Below, one piece after another: positions 7,196-18,296 of a DNA stretch of 64,000 nucleotides. This DNA is from Gloeopeniophorella convolvens (Eukaryota; Basidiomycota; Agaricomycetes; Russulales): contig WTXD01000031.1 of the NCBI GenBank assembly GCA_022496205.1, positions 273,601 through 337,600 of the forward strand. The letters run 5' to 3'. Within the stretch, counting starts at the first letter, position 1. Every line of letters begins with the position of its first letter. The translations under genes and the position numbers were made by a program. A model generated the notes under the pieces. It was not told the origin of the DNA. It was given only the letters and a program-made list of their open reading frames with translations, and made no database searches.

Positions 7196-7470
7196 TCACT
7201 TCAAGCCCCTAAATTTGGCCAGCGGCCACCATGCGCAACTGGGGACGACCCCGGTGCGGTGCGGGCTGACGATCCCAGATTGATTGCGCGAGCCCGGACT
7301 CCAGGAAAAGCTCAGCTGATCGGTCAAGAAAACCCGTCGGGAGCCGGGGACCCCAACCATTATGCGTGATTGTCTCGATGGTGCGATGGTGCGCAACCAA
7401 ACTTCAATCACGCTAGTCAGGAACCCGAGGAATGCCATATAGGTTCTGAAGACGTACCTTCGGCGAGGGA
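7196..7470 (-). pseudogene. Probable decayed 5' part of a copy-3-like gene
   Basis: Minus-strand sequence around 7290-7330 resembles the N-terminal part of copy 3 (AELFLESGLAQS against AGLFLEPEPARS). An equivalent donor-like GAAG/GTACGT lies upstream at about 7455. No coil or YTVRTV tail is present. I infer a truncated, decayed tandem copy; the similarity is short and could be chance. Confidence 0.3.
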
Positions 7471-11461: not shown

Positions 11462-11470
11462 GAGGCATCC
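11462..11470. repeat. Target-site duplication, left copy
   Basis: GAGGCATCC, identical to 18288-18296, lies immediately outside the left inverted terminus of the element. The preceding A also matches, so the duplication could be read as 8-10 bp depending on where the terminus is cut. Confidence 0.85.
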
Positions 11471-11658
11471 TAGTCTCGTTCCCGCCTAGTCTCGTTCCCG
11501 CCGTTCACAGAGCCGGCTAGGAGGGTTGAAATTGTCGGTTGTTGAGTGTTGTCATTGGTAGATCGGATTTAGAATCTGAAATGGTGCCTGAAAAAACCCT
11601 CGCTAGCCGGCTCTGTGAACGTCTGGTGCACTTCGCATGGGAGACCCCCCATCGTGAC
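11471..11658 (+). repeat. Left terminus: terminal block, long hairpin and inner block
   Basis: A 16-bp unit (CTAGTCTCGTTCCCGC) occurs twice head to tail at 11470-11485 and 11486-11501. Then a 19-bp perfect inverted repeat (CGTTCACAGAGCCGGCTAG, 11502-11520; complement at 11603-11621) encloses about 80 bp. The arms continue as GAGGGTT/AACCCTC with a one-base bulge. The inner block 11620-11658 matches the right end in inverted orientation. Read alone, the 120-bp palindromic unit could be taken for a MITE, but a hairpin sits at the same place at the other end. Confidence 0.85.
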
Positions 11659-11811
11659 TGATTGTAACGCCTGGCTGTTAAGCGCATGTCAAGCGACGGA
11701 CTTCACGTGGGCAGACGCGTCGACTTACGTGGTAGTAATAGCGTAAGTCTCTAGCTGACCAACTTGGTGCCAACGCATCAACCGACAAGTCACACTCCTG
11801 CGGGCAGGGCC

Positions 11812-14800
11812 ATGTCTGACCCTCCAACAGGTCCAGAAAATGGTGTTCAGAGTTCCATGGAACAGGACATTCGTTCTCTTACACAATCTGATGCACTACC
11901 TACAGCTCATGAAGCAGAGCGGGCACGGTCATATGCCCTTCTCAATGATGCACGACGGAGGGCCGGGGGAAGGTACAAGTCAGCAGATGCAAGGAAGATC
12001 ATGGTGGATGAATGCACACGTAGATCATGCGGCAGGGTTGTCCCGAAGGAGTGGCAATTGGATGTAGCAGAATGCATCATCCTCGGTGTCGACTGTGAAG
12101 TAATTGCTCCGACTGGTGCAGGGAAGACCATACCATTCATTCTGCCTGTGTTCTATCAACCAAAGAAGGAGATTGTCATTATCTCGCCTCTAATTGCCCT
12201 TCAGAAAGATCAGGTATGTTAGAACCTATAGTTCATCCATAAGCTAACAGTTGCATAGGAGCGTCGGTTTCGTGAACTCGGAATACATGCAAAAGCAATA
12301 AACCGAGATACCTATAGCCGATCTGTCAAGAGGGTGCGTCCGCTGCAGAGATTGAATGTTTTTTAAGTACTCACGATACAACCAGAATCTCAAGCGTGGC
12401 CGGTATCCAGTGATACTGACTTCACCTGAGATGTGTCTGCTGCACCCAGAGTTCCGTGCCGCTTTAGAAGCACCGTCAAAGCGTCGAAGGATTGCTGCCT
12501 TTCTGATAGACGAAGCCCATTGCATCACACAGTGGGGCGAAGAGTTTCGACATGCGTATAGTGAGCTGGGGACACTTCGAGCTTTTGTGTCAAATCGCGT
12601 ACCATTCCTCGTCACCTCTGCGACTCTCACACCTGCAGACTTGGTTGAGGTTCGCAACTCGGTGCATATGCAGCGTCACTCATCTTTCCACCTCAACCTC
12701 GGAAATGATCGGCCTAATATCACCTGGAACGTTCACCGAATGAAGGCTGCCAAGTCTGACGTCGAATCACTCGCATTCCTCTTACCTGAAACAGAGAGTC
12801 TCGAATCTGACGCAAAGCTCATCCGCAGTGTCATCTTCTTTGATGATATCTCATTGTCGATGGAGGTGCTTCGGTGGTTCCGCGAACACCTTCCTGAACG
12901 GCTTCGAAAGCGCGTGGCTTGCTATAATTCAATGCGCGGTGACGAAAGTAAGATTGATGTCATTGAAGAATTCAATAATGGGAACATAGACATACTATTT
13001 GCGAGCGAAGCAGCGGGCATGGTGAGTGCATGTTGCAAGTATGAGATACTCTATTAATGCCGTGTTTTGCATTGCAGGGGTGCGATCTGGCCGATGTCGA
13101 TGTCGTCGTGCAGTTTTTGGTGCCAAAATCACTCTCGATCTGGTTCCAGCGTGCTGGCCGTGCCGGGAGGCGGAGAGGTAGCCAAGCTAGTGCATATCTA
13201 TTGGTTCAGCCGACGATCTTCCAAGAAGTCGGAAAGGGGACGCGCCTGGCTGGTGATGATATTAAGTACAAGAAAGACGTCGAGGTTGGCCTCCGTGATT
13301 GGATTGAGACAACTGGGTGCCGTCGCCTTGTTGCTGATGAATATTTCAACAACCCAGGTCATGAGCGTGAGTTGTCTTGTTCGCGTTGTGCGCTTTGGGT
13401 ATGAGCTAATCAGCGGTAATACGCTATGTAGCGTCTGTTGGCGTGTGTTGTGACAATTGCGCGCGCGCGATGGCAGCCGCGCAAGGTTCGCAAGACGAAT
13501 CTCAGCGCGAGCGGCCGACAACTCCCATCCATTCACGCAACCCCTCCATTATCACACATCCCACTCCTAGCAAAGCTCTAAATTCTTCAGGAAAACGGCC
13601 AATGCTCAACCCTGACGCGGATCGCCCCCCAACGTTCCTGTCAGGCGACAGGGGGACTTTCTTCGCGCCGCGGAGGCTGCTCTGAAGACATGGAGACGCA
13701 GTACGTGGCTCGAACATTACTCGTTGCGCCCCTGGGGTGTCGAGGGCCTGATGTCCGATGCTGTGCTGACCGGGTTCGCGACATACGCGCGCTGGTCGGA
13801 GGTGGATCACGTCGCCAGCTCAGATCAGTGCCCTGCCGCGGCGAAGTGGTGGGCGTTGCACATCCATGGCAAGGATGTTCTGGACGTCACACAAAAAGCA
13901 CACAAGAGGATAGCGGACGAGAACGAGCTCGCGAAAAAACAACGGAACGACGCTCGTAAACAAGCGACACGCGAACGGCAAGAGGAGAAGAAAAGGATTA
14001 AGACAGAGGCGCGCGAGCAAACAAAGATCGAAAAGGGGAAGGCACGGGAAGAGAAGGCATCCACGGACGTTGAACGGAAGGCGAGGGAGCGCGAGGAGAA
14101 ACAAAGGGCCAAGGAGGCGGAAAAGAAGCAGAAGGCGGAGGAGGCGGAGATGGCACGCCTTATGGAGGAGGCGGCCATACATATGGCGGTTCGTTTTTGT
14201 TTCTCTCCATTTTCTGGGCTTAGTATTCCATGCGCTAACGGTCTGTACACCAGGCATTGCGGACAGAGCCCAGGCGTATCGCGCCGCGGCCGCGTCCCGC
14301 ATACCGTGGCGCGCAGGCTGCCCTTCCGCCCGCCGCGCCCACTCAATCCGATCCTGCACCACCAGCGGCACCATCGCAGGCGTTGTATCCACTGCCAGAG
14401 CCAGTCGCGCCGTGGCCGCAGCCGGATCCAGCGTTCCACGGGGCACACCATCATCACCACCCCCCACCACACGCTTCCTCCGAAACGCCCGTAGCCCACC
14501 CAGTCGATTACCCGCAACCGCTACCCACCTACTCACCAGCCCCCGCGCACTATGGCCCACTTGTCTCACTCGCAGTGCCGAGTCCCGCGGTGGATATCGC
14601 ACTCCGTACAGACCTGCCGGCCGGTCCATCTACACCCGTTCTGCAGGACAACAGCTGGGACTGGCCCTCCGAAGCCCCATATCCGAGCGCCCTTTTTGAG
14701 GGGCACGTCAGGCAGCGCGCTTACGTCGACTACCGTGCACCTCCCCCGCCGCCGGACGACTTTGCGTTGGTAACGCACAACCACGTCTCCAACGGCCCGA

Positions 14801-15233
14801 TCCGTGCGTCGCGATTTTTTCGTCTTCCCGATTAACTTTGTTAACCTCATTATGTGTAGGCGATCCAGCATTCCTTACGCCGCCATATACCCCGCAGCAC
14901 TCGTCGCGGAATGCACACCATCTCCCTCCCGTTTCCGCGCCCCAGCAGCGTGCGCCGTTCGGAACTCACCCATACACGCCGTCGAACACGCCTCAGTACA
15001 CACCGCATAATACGCCTCAATATACCCCCCATAATACGCCCCAAGGAACACCTTCTTGGACTCCGCACCACACGCCGCAAAGGGCTGTGATGGCACTGTA
15101 CGCACCATCTCGCCAGATGCATCCGCCCGCGCCGGTCCGGTATGTCGCGCCGGCCCGGGTGACCATCCCGGTCCCCTACCACCAGTCGCAACCGCCGCCA
15201 CCGCCGCAACAAGGATGGCATGGCGGATTTTAG
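11812..15233 (+). CDS. RecQ-like ATP-dependent DNA helicase with C-terminal extension (frame probably broken)
   Basis: Superfamily 2 helicase. Exons by frame and splice signals: 11812-12213, 12259-12333, 12386-13021, 13078-13366, 13432-14188, 14254-14803, 14860-15233. Visible motifs are Walker A APTGAGKT, ISPLIALQKDQ, DEAHC with the RecQ-type continuation ITQWGEEFRH, SATLTP, FASEAAGMGCDL spanning an intron, and QRAGRAGRRRG. A cysteine segment (CCDNC) follows, then a domain containing TWLEHYSLRPWG. Next come a Lys/Glu-rich coiled coil (about 13890-14180) and a tail rich in Pro, Thr, His and Gln with repeated TPxYTPHN units. Between 13614 and 13685 the frame must shift by one base near a C6 tract (13626-13631), and no good intron solves it. 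The copy may be inactive, or there is a sequence error. The element context suggests a role in transposition. Confidence 0.85.
13614..13685 (+). other. Apparent one-base frameshift in the helicase gene
   Basis: The upstream helicase frame runs to a stop at 13683-13685. The downstream frame (AAEAALKTWRRSTWLEHY) opens after a TGA at about 13614. The overlap contains runs of six C and five G. One extra C in the C6 run would join the frames; the only GT dinucleotides nearby are poor donors. Confidence 0.6.
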
Positions 15234-15266
15234 TAAGATATAAATACAATCGTTTCAATCCACAAT

Positions 15267-18048
15267 CTATTCTGCCCCTGCTGAGATGCTTCCCGCGTTG
15301 TCTTCCTGCGTCCCGCTACCGGACTCACTCGCTGAATCTGCAGATCGCTTCTCTAGTCTGGATTGAGAGGTATTGCGCTTGAACGACCGCCCCTCCCACC
15401 ACCGATCGAACACCCCATCAGGCTGTGTAACTGCATTCTGGCCAATCGTGATGACATCTTTTGCCTGGTCACCTTCCCGCGTGATGGTGCGGCCGTCATG
15501 GCGCGAATACCATTTTTCGTCAACGATGACATCCATCCATTTCTTCACGTCCCTGTCTTTTCCTGGTACTGTATGTGCTGATCCTCGAGACCTAATAAGT
15601 TGGTGCTGCGCCTTCATATGGGCCGCAACTGCACGGAAGACCGGAACGCCAGGTGACATTCTCGAGAGCTGCTCGAGCGTCGCCCCCGGGCCGCTAGACC
15701 GGTACGTAACCTTTTGAAGTATCAGCGCGAGGTTTCATCCTCACAAGGCATAGATCACCTTGATATCCTTTATGTTTTGTTCTTGAGCCTGGTCAATTGG
15801 CAGGAAACCATCCCGATTTCCCATACGGTTCAGCAACCAGCAGTGCTTTCGGACAAAATTTCTGATTCGTGGAGGGTAAGTGTGACGTATCATGCGAGAA
15901 CAACTTAAAACTGACTTCACCTCCGGTGTCCACTCGCGCTTCAAGCCTTGCAGCAGCTCCAGGACCTCAATTGTGTACTTGCTGTGCTTGCTTCCAGCGA
16001 AGCGAAACAGCAATGTGGGTAGGAGGTCTTCCATGCGCCCAACATCTCCCATTTTGATTGCCTCCCGCAGATCAAAATATGCCAGTGTATCTGCCAGGAA
16101 CATGATAGCATGGTATTGAACTTCGTCCGAGATGTCACCGGCTTCGTTCCTCAGTTGGACAAGCGCAGTTCGTGAGGCATATCTCTTGTAGATCTTCTCC
16201 GCGAGGGCGATTAGCTCATGAGGGGTTTTACTCAGAAGTTCCGATAGGTCACCGTTTTTGAGAGACGCAGCTTGGATCCAGCATGCAAGAACGTGGGCCT
16301 CGCCAATGTGCCAAAGCGCCTCATCAAGATGATGCCAAAACGGGCCTTTTGTTTGCGTCTTCTGTAATCCTTTCCGCTTGAGTAAGTCGAACGCACGTCG
16401 CAGGCCAAACCCTGCTGATGTTCCTTCATATTGCCCCAGGAGCGAGCTCGCAAATGCAAAGAGGCAGTGAAGCCACCCAAACACTGCAAGGACCCAGTCA
16501 AGACGCTCAAACCCATTGACATCGTCGTGCCGGTACTTCGTTAGGCCGCGAAGGCGTTCGACTGTGAGTTGGTCACCTATAATCGCAACGAGGAACTCAG
16601 CCGCAAGTCGCTTCCGGTCCTCGTTGTCGTCATCAAGGTGTAGTATCTGAAGCAGATATTTGAGGACCTGTTGATTCCCCTCATAACTCGCTTCCTCGAT
16701 GTCTGCAGTGTATAGCATGAACTGCTCTATGGTGTTCTCCAGACCCGCCGGCAGCTGGTTTGTGGGAGGAGGTGGTGCGAGGATGGGGTTATCACGGTGA
16801 GGGTAAGTCTTGAATGCTGGAGATTCAAGTAGAAACCGCAAGATTCTATATCTTGCCTGTGCTGCTATACGAGAATCTGTGGCGTCCGCTTCGCTACCGT
16901 TCATCAAGGCCCCGATGGAGAATGGTTCCTTTGCGCCTTCAATACGCGTAGTTCGAAACTCGCTGCCGAACGTCTCTGAAAGCCGGACAGAACGCGGAAA
17001 CACCCAGAGTGTTGCAGCGCATGCGCTGTAGAAATGGTGCTGGTTGTCTGATCGCATCGAAAAGACGCGTTTTGGGATATTGACGTTATCATAGGAGAGT
17101 ACGAATGCCCGCTTCCTGACCGCGACGACGGCTCCTTCCATCTGCTTCTCCGAGATGCTCCCGAATGCATTGTTGGTCCATCTTATACTCATCGCGAGGC
17201 CCGTAGAATGAACAGCATCGAAAGCACGTGAAGAGAGGCCACACGACTTTAGGTAGATTGCCCAGAGTGCCGCGAGGCGATTGGACTTGTGCGAACGTGT
17301 GTAGGAAAGCATGCTGATAATATTCATCACAACCTACAGGTAATCTAAGTCATGCCGCTACACGCAAGATCTGGTACCACGGACTCACGTTATTGGGTCT
17401 TTTAGATGTGTTTCGCTTTTCTTGCGACTTGCTCCATGCTGTGCCTAACAACAGATCCCACAGGAGAGGTGCCGACTCCTGAAGTTCCGCGGATAGAGTC
17501 GGGAAGCTCAGAGATGTGAGGGTCTCTAGGGAAAGTGGATCACCAGGCGAGGTGAGGACTTTGGCGACTGCACGCATCTCATCCTGGATGCTCTCCTTGA
17601 CGCAGTCTGCAGCGAACCCCTCTATGATCGCTCGGCTCACATCAGCCTTTCCACCAGGGGGCTTCCACCAGCGCTGTAGCAGATCCAGGAACTCGCCGCT
17701 TGAGAGAAATCGGGTTCGCGCGCCTCGTATTTGAGGGTCACTTGTGCACTGCTTGTCCCCCCAGCAGACCGCATTCAAGAACATTCCGAGATCGAGGCCC
17801 TGTGTATTCATAAAGTCCAGTACTGCCTTGGCCCTTGTGCATACATCGGCACCCAAGTTGCTTGTGGGATACCGTGCGTGTTGCCATGGCCGGCGATGAT
17901 TGTGAGGCTCCTCCTGGTCCGATGCATCACTGCTTGTAGCTGTCAAGGACCCTGCATCTTCATCAAGCACAAAGTCGGAATCATCCTCTGATTCGTCATC
18001 GAAAATATCACGAAAGAATTGAGGGAGGTCTGCGGCTATGTTGTCCAT
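15267..18048 (-). CDS. DUF6589 protein, candidate transposase
   Basis: About 891 residues from three exons: 18048-17389, 17333-15745 and 15693-15267, with introns of 55 and 51 bp in good GT-AG context. The start is the ATG at 18048 (MDNIAADLPQF); one 13 codons upstream is also possible. The N-terminus is acidic (DDESEDDSDFVLDEDAG). The central and C-terminal parts carry what I recognise as DUF6589 signatures: AFDAVHSTGLAMSIRW, IGDQLTVERLRGL, NGFERLDWVLAVFGWLHCL, FLPIDQAQEQNIKDIKV and, after the last intron, FGPGATLEQLSRMSPGVP. The family is common and multicopy in Agaricomycetes. Its function is not established to my knowledge; the Asp in GDQLT could be a first acidic residue of an RNase H-like fold. 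The gene is intact and converges on the helicase gene 33 bp away. Confidence 0.85.
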
Positions 18049-18197
18049 TTGTGATGTCTTTCGATAGCACGATGCTTGCGCGCACACAGAAAGCAGCCAT
18101 CATGATTATCAAGCGACATCAACTGATAACATCTCACAATTGTGCTGACAATCATATAATACTTTTGACACTACTGCTTATGTCAGGCGTGATGGTT

Positions 18198-18287
18198 GTC
18201 ACGACGGGGGGTCTCCCTAGCGAAATACCCCAGACGTTGCAGGAGCCAGCCGAGCTGGATCTCTGCAACGATCTGGAACCGAGACTA
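18198..18287 (-). repeat. Right terminus: inner block, hairpin and terminal block
   Basis: Read on the minus strand from 18287 inward: TAGTCTCGGTTCC, then a hairpin (CGTTGCAG at 18235-18242 pairs with CTGCAACG at 18263-18270, with CCAGC/GCTGG further in), then the 39-nt block shared with the left end (18198-18236). Hairpin arms at the two ends begin alike (CGTTCACAGAG against CGTTGCAGAGA), but the right hairpin is only 36 bp where the left is 120 bp. Confidence 0.85.
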
Positions 18288-18296
18288 GAGGCATCC
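18288..18296. repeat. Target-site duplication, right copy
   Basis: GAGGCATCC, identical to 11462-11470, directly outside the right terminus. Confidence 0.85.

Follow-up and report, generated by a model that had tools for sequence, protein, structure and literature searches.

We find that a stretch of 64,000 nucleotides of Gloeopeniophorella convolvens DNA (the whole of the sequence analysed, referred to hereafter as the window) holds a complete, recently mobile DNA transposon of 6,817 bp, whose two convergent genes encode a RecQ-type helicase and a DUF6589 protein, the latter a candidate transposase. We judge it likely that this cut-and-paste-type element belongs to the AcademH lineage of the Academ superfamily, as that lineage is portrayed in papers that cite it. 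The ends of the element are built from the following features (window coordinates, with strand where one applies):

11462–11470, left 9-bp target duplication GAGGCATCC, a perfect repeat
11471–11478, first 8 nt of the left tip, TAGTCTCG, inverted relative to the right tip
11471–11486 (+), outer left tip TAGTCTCGTTCCCGCC, an extra tandem copy absent from the other left ends read
11487–11502 (+), second, inner left-tip copy, lining up with the one tip present in other insertions
11502–11520 (+), first arm of the left foldback, 19 nt, perfect
11603–11621 (−), second arm of the left foldback
11620–11658 (+), inner block at the left end, 33/39 identical to the inverse of 18198–18236
18198–18236 (−), inner block at the right end
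18230–18276 (+), right-end foldback (hairpin)
18277–18287 (−), right tip, read inward as TAGTCTCGGTT
18280–18287, last 8 nt of the right tip, CGAGACTA, inverted relative to the left tip
18288–18296, right 9-bp target duplication GAGGCATCC, a perfect repeat

A perfect 9-mer repeat flanking a perfect 8-nt inverted tip, with the two sides 0.5–12 kb apart, occurs at a single place in the 64-kb window. The exact duplications, the inverted tips directly inside them and the 39-nt inner block shared between the ends had each been reported in a preliminary description of this DNA, and all three were reproduced when recomputed. The window copy carries its 16-nt left tip in tandem duplicate (11471–11486 and 11487–11502), this tip being single in the other left ends that were read, and the target duplication adjoins the outer of the two tip copies.

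The ends recur elsewhere in the genome. Searching the 36.68-Mb assembly (404 contigs, here given as C with a number) returned 19 matches to the left end and 19 to the right end, six of the left-end matches being the inner block at right ends. For ten insertions, a single contig holds both ends (the window copy, C168, C278, C35, C74, C257, C104, C290 at 141 kb, C323 and C163), five of which are short elements (C278, C35, C74, C257 and C104); the C163 copy was found by a script seeking a tip together with a duplication, and it bears identical TAGTCTCG tips. When these loci were read, all ten proved to be flanked by perfect 9-bp duplications, every one of them different. The repeat is exactly 9 bp in five of the ten and chance identity permits one extra base on a side in the other five; the window copy by itself could be stretched one base beyond 9. 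Since the repeat cannot be extended in either direction in the first five, the duplication is 9 bp and not 8, and the asymmetric 8-bp (hAT/KDZ-like) reading offered previously is wrong. Two further copies are split between contigs (C29/C374 and C55/C88), and their outer 9-mers agree within each, agreement that also served as the criterion for recognizing them as halves of one copy. The duplication tally leaves out the one-ended loci (C365, C46, C68, C342, C57, C9, C168 at 36.6 kb and C129, the last two of which have an identical flank) and a 72-bp head-to-head unit at 37 kb of C374; the C163-subfamily copies C161, C251 and C290 at 136 kb stand outside the end readings. In this small sample, 12/12 of the 9-mers end in G or C.

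Full-size copies are 99.6–99.95% alike, and five 2.0-kb derivatives, which are short non-autonomous relatives with the same ends, are 98.89–99.65% alike. The preliminary description had anticipated that the two ends would be found as a pair at several sites, each with its own duplication, and that similarity would not run past them; both ends do recur jointly, with a separate 9-bp duplication at each copy, and the similarity between copies stops at the tips.

Several further observations were made while reading these loci. One short copy (L032:1002–2977) contains telomere-like tracts, with three exact CCCTAA hexamers (two near one end) and, in the direction of the opposite end, four exact TTAGGG; this count covers L032 alone, the five 2.0-kb copies (L031–L035) being about 99% alike, and the full-size window element has none. 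A 72-bp unit at L045:4031–4102 consists of two right tips placed head to head, without a 9-bp duplication. Two insertions lie in or near symmetrical sequence, one within the foldback arm of another element (L037:700–745) and one beside the palindrome GAAGCTTAGCTTC (L034:1013–1028), such that a preference for palindromic targets is possible, on the basis of 2/12 insertions.

Movement of these elements can also be read from unoccupied targets. Nine insertions were probed with 150 + 150 nt of joined flanks containing one 9-mer each, and five of these probes matched a different contig over their full length without interruption, with a single 9-mer and 0–2 mismatches in 300 nt (C168 matching C94, C278 matching C334, C74 matching C79, C104 matching C359 and C323 matching C49, with 2, 0, 1, 0 and 1 mismatches, respectively; one of those at C94 is the last base of the 9-mer). 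The C104 site could be a paralogue, because its flank is repeated and has further matches at 81–84%. With the C290 probe, three insert-free copies of a repeat were hit (99%), and as this repeat is itself one of these elements, the insertion is nested. An empty site holding a single copy of the target had been named earlier as support for mobility of the window copy; such sites were found for the five insertions above, elsewhere in the same assembly, but for the window copy itself, as for the short copies C35 and C257, the joined-flank probe found no empty site in the assembly. We infer that the contigs with empty sites represent the second haplotype of a dikaryon.

The interior of the element is occupied by two convergent multi-exon genes, as the preliminary description had stated, and both could be modelled:

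11812–15233 (+), RecQ-type helicase gene, from domain matches and predicted exons
11812–12213, 12259–12333, 12386–13021, 13078–13366 and 13432–13687 (+), predicted helicase exons, 551 aa, open
about 13637–13945 (+), predicted conserved C-terminal domain of the helicase
to 15233 (+), predicted Pro/His-rich tail of the helicase
15267–18048 (−), DUF6589 gene, putative transposase, from the PF20231 match and predicted exons
18048–17389, 17333–15916, 15861–15759 and 15710–15267 (−), predicted DUF6589 exons, 875 aa, open
17088–17090 (−), Asp codon in YDN, candidate catalytic D1, from alignment
16572–16574 (−), Asp codon in GDQLT, candidate catalytic D2, from alignment
15780–15782 (−), Glu codon in QEQNIK, candidate catalytic E, from alignment; another conserved Glu is possible

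The helicase was modelled with GT-AG introns, its spliced product being a prediction. Its Pfam matches are DEAD and Helicase_C, with RecQ_Zn_bind below its cut-off, and its leading solved relatives are RecQ, WRN, BLM, RECQ1 and RECQ5. All four further TAGTCTCG subfamilies that were inspected retain the C-terminal domain (39–62% identity), and the gene therefore probably extends to about 15233. Elsewhere in the assembly, RecQ-like matches with no DUF6589 match within 8 kb lie at C349:191504, C395:25, C344:1782, C55:13530, C342:106576 and C13:269965, some of these six being near a contig end.

The main exon of the opposing gene matches PF20231 at 346 bits; the spliced DUF6589 product (four exons, 875 open residues) is likewise a prediction. 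Scanning nine reading frames of the element against Pfam revealed no other recombinase family at E 0.1, in keeping with the earlier statement that no known recombinase lies inside, and no nuclease family was listed among the matches. Two protein searches found 183 and 270 relatives of DUF6589, of which 120 were listed each; such names as were read among those listed are from Agaricomycetes and, among the 120 of 270 (a profile search for animal or fused relatives), PF20231 is the sole precomputed domain. Profile comparison returned two chance-level matches among solved structures and no credible similarity there, nor any to other Pfam families.

Thirty-six aligned DUF6589 proteins share GDQ and a late QE without exception, and DN almost without exception. 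When 74 rows are aligned, GD and a His remain invariant and DN exceeds 90%, but QE falls short of 90%, possibly on account of fragmentary rows, and several further Glu residues are equally conserved. A 13-row set containing three distant exons retains the second D, and the H 35 residues after it, in every row, even where rows are about 20% identical. A C/DxxH motif is shared by some DDE transposases, according to one account (PMC9587614), and the conserved D, D, H, E pattern of DUF6589 resembles that of DDE enzymes, the roles assigned to individual residues being putative.

We then consider how consistently the two genes occur together. For DUF6589, 34 exon matches merged into 21 loci, and for the helicase 27 matches merged into 24. 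A helicase lies within 5 kb of DUF6589 (4.8 kb at most) at 16/21 loci, convergent and in the same order in 16/16, these paired loci not all being independent (one subfamily contributes several copies, and C334 and C356 resemble two alleles). Paired lineages include helicases only about 30% identical to that of the window, and at the loci read, these weak helicase matches held up when the longer protein was used. At DUF6589 loci C68 and C88, a contig end cuts the side on which the helicase is expected, and C88 rejoins C55, which has one; at C4, C10 and C105, no helicase was found within 5 kb and contig ends provide no explanation. The two proteins lose identity to the window in approximately the same order of subfamilies (B for the most part the closest, C and D next, E last), as expected if both were inherited together.

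Both genes are under purifying selection. Between TAGTCTCG subfamilies, pN is 0.18–0.29 against a pS of 0.70–0.77 for DUF6589, and 0.10–0.24 against 0.79–0.85 for the helicase, ratios that are rough, silent sites being almost saturated; only alignments longer than 120 residues were used, and two distant rows fall outside these ranges (L056 for DUF6589, pN 0.51 and pS 0.72; L055 for the helicase, pN 0.48 and pS 0.87). The proposal that the two genes travel as one mobile element is thus upheld by their multicopy state, the individual 9-bp duplications, the empty sites and the recurrent convergent pair, and the companion proposal, DUF6589 as candidate transposase, draws support from elimination, conservation and purifying selection together.

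More distant pairs exist. That of L055 (C2), with about 21% (DUF6589) and 27% (RecQ) identity over the longest matches, lies between 119-nt inverted arms (L055:897–1015 and 7326–7444, 92% alike), in contrast to the short tips of the window group, and no duplication could be fixed beside these arms. A further DUF6589/helicase pair lies at 142–146 kb of C342. For the distant pair of C334/C356, a 7-nt inverted tip with a 9-mer repeat was rejected as the ends, because the helicase match begins outside that tip. In other species, contigs of equal size (3,627, 8,164 and 9,937) occur among the 120 DUF6589 and 120 helicase matches listed; the mean over 120 shifted controls was 0.37, with three reached in 1/120, and the linkage that this implies is suggestive only.

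Both ends of the element share an order of parts, namely tip, foldback and conserved inner block. The helicase-side end contains, immediately inward of its tip, an inverted repeat whose perfect arm measures 19 nt (subfamily A), 22 nt (B) or 15 nt (E); when each end was shuffled 100 times, the longest arms were 7, 8 and 10 nt, respectively. Comparison of these three subfamilies reveals covariation: between A and B, 4/17 pairs have changed on both sides, and between A and E, as between B and E, 10/15 have done so, none being broken in any comparison. Pairing of the end foldbacks therefore survives compensatory changes. At the opposite side of the element, all eight right ends that were folded form hairpins, strongest in B (16 bp) and weakest in C. 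Ends of this kind could plausibly be acted on by a RecQ helicase.

A mechanism can be proposed from these parts. DUF6589 would act as a DDE-type transposase (using the D of DN, the D of GDQ, the downstream H and a late E), would recognize the tip together with the inner block, and would insert the element with a 9-bp stagger; the RecQ helicase may help to process the foldback ends or the donor gap. A stronger version, which we advance only tentatively and regard as rather unlikely, would make DUF6589 a transposase superfamily of its own with cruciform-forming foldback ends, which an obligatory RecQ opens or repairs, such that ends and helicase co-evolve.

Most interest attaches to two results, the covariation of the foldback ends and the assignment of DUF6589. 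The first suggests a reason for a transposon to carry a RecQ helicase, and the second points to a function for a large fungal family that lacks annotation, its members probably being transposases and not host genes. With copies nearly identical and empty sites present, a possibly living helicase-encoding transposon is accessible. The term “DUF6589” was not found in the literature searched (one limited library), and a search by Pfam and InterPro number listed a single paper, on optics and unrelated; within that library's limits, the role of DUF6589 as a transposase may be unrecorded.

The known group closest in description is AcademH, which is reportedly due to Kojima 2020. In the accounts of citing papers, duplications are 9 or 10 bp long in AcademH and 3 or 4 bp long in AcademX, the length being tied to the encoded enzyme (a helicase in AcademH, a nuclease in AcademX; PMC10045372), and AcademH occurs in Basidiomycota, Ascomycota and Mucoromycota (PMC10799480). 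The window element and its relatives show 9-bp duplications in 10/10 two-ended insertions, where 9 or 10 bp is the mark of AcademH (PMC10045372); the window element encodes a helicase (DEAD and Helicase_C, with RecQ relatives), and no nuclease family was listed for its nine reading frames; the host, a member of the Russulales, is a fungus of a phylum in which AcademH is known (PMC10799480). As duplication length, helicase and fungal host all fit, the element is a probable AcademH member by the features named in those papers rather than by transposase homology, and DUF6589 would by extension be the Academ transposase. In the window element the helicase and DUF6589 are separate convergent genes, a layout that may differ from that of AcademH. 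The earlier remark that no described superfamily with this pair was known is not supported, since helicase-encoding AcademH elements with 9- or 10-bp duplications have been described in fungi (PMC10045372, PMC10799480).

The strongest competitor, which we nonetheless think unlikely, is a separate unnamed superfamily (DUF6589 with RecQ, 9 bp and foldback ends) resembling AcademH only in duplication length and helicase. The conserved foldback ends, the want of any other credible Pfam or PDB relative of DUF6589 and the missing mentions of that name would suit it, although such silence says little, as transposon papers need not use Pfam DUF names; against it, a helicase, a 9/10-bp duplication and a fungal host are what the citing papers describe for AcademH (PMC10045372, PMC10799480). 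It is very improbable that DUF6589 is an accessory protein and that the element is mobilized by an enzyme from another part of the genome: its candidate catalytic role is read from sequence, and mobility extends to non-autonomous copies in which no gene is evident, but the helicase and DUF6589, the two recognized genes of full-size copies, are conserved and selected across subfamilies, and the second D and H persist in even the most divergent rows.

Duplications of 9 bp are typical of Mutator, and a Mutator-like element that acquired a helicase gene would share this length. We consider such an origin very improbable, in that neither the nine reading frames nor the 36 aligned DUF6589 rows gave a MULE-type Pfam match, and the gene pair is common to divergent subfamilies and so is not one recent capture; nor need 9 bp be the Mutator-type sign for which it was first taken, AcademH having 9- or 10-bp duplications as well. 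KolobokH, a fungal Kolobok DNA transposon that likewise encodes a RecQ helicase and is described as found only in fungi (PMC9587614), is excluded for practical purposes because its duplications are TTAA (4 bp), with 5′-RR..YY-3′ ends by the same account, as against 9 bp and TAG..CTA ends here. hAT and KDZ elements usually duplicate 8 bp, unlike the 9 bp of the resolved insertions in this group. Lastly, the telomere-linked RecQ helicases are multicopy genes of fungal genomes (as reported in PMC4522978), as is the RecQ gene studied here, which differs in sitting within a bounded mobile element alongside a second gene.
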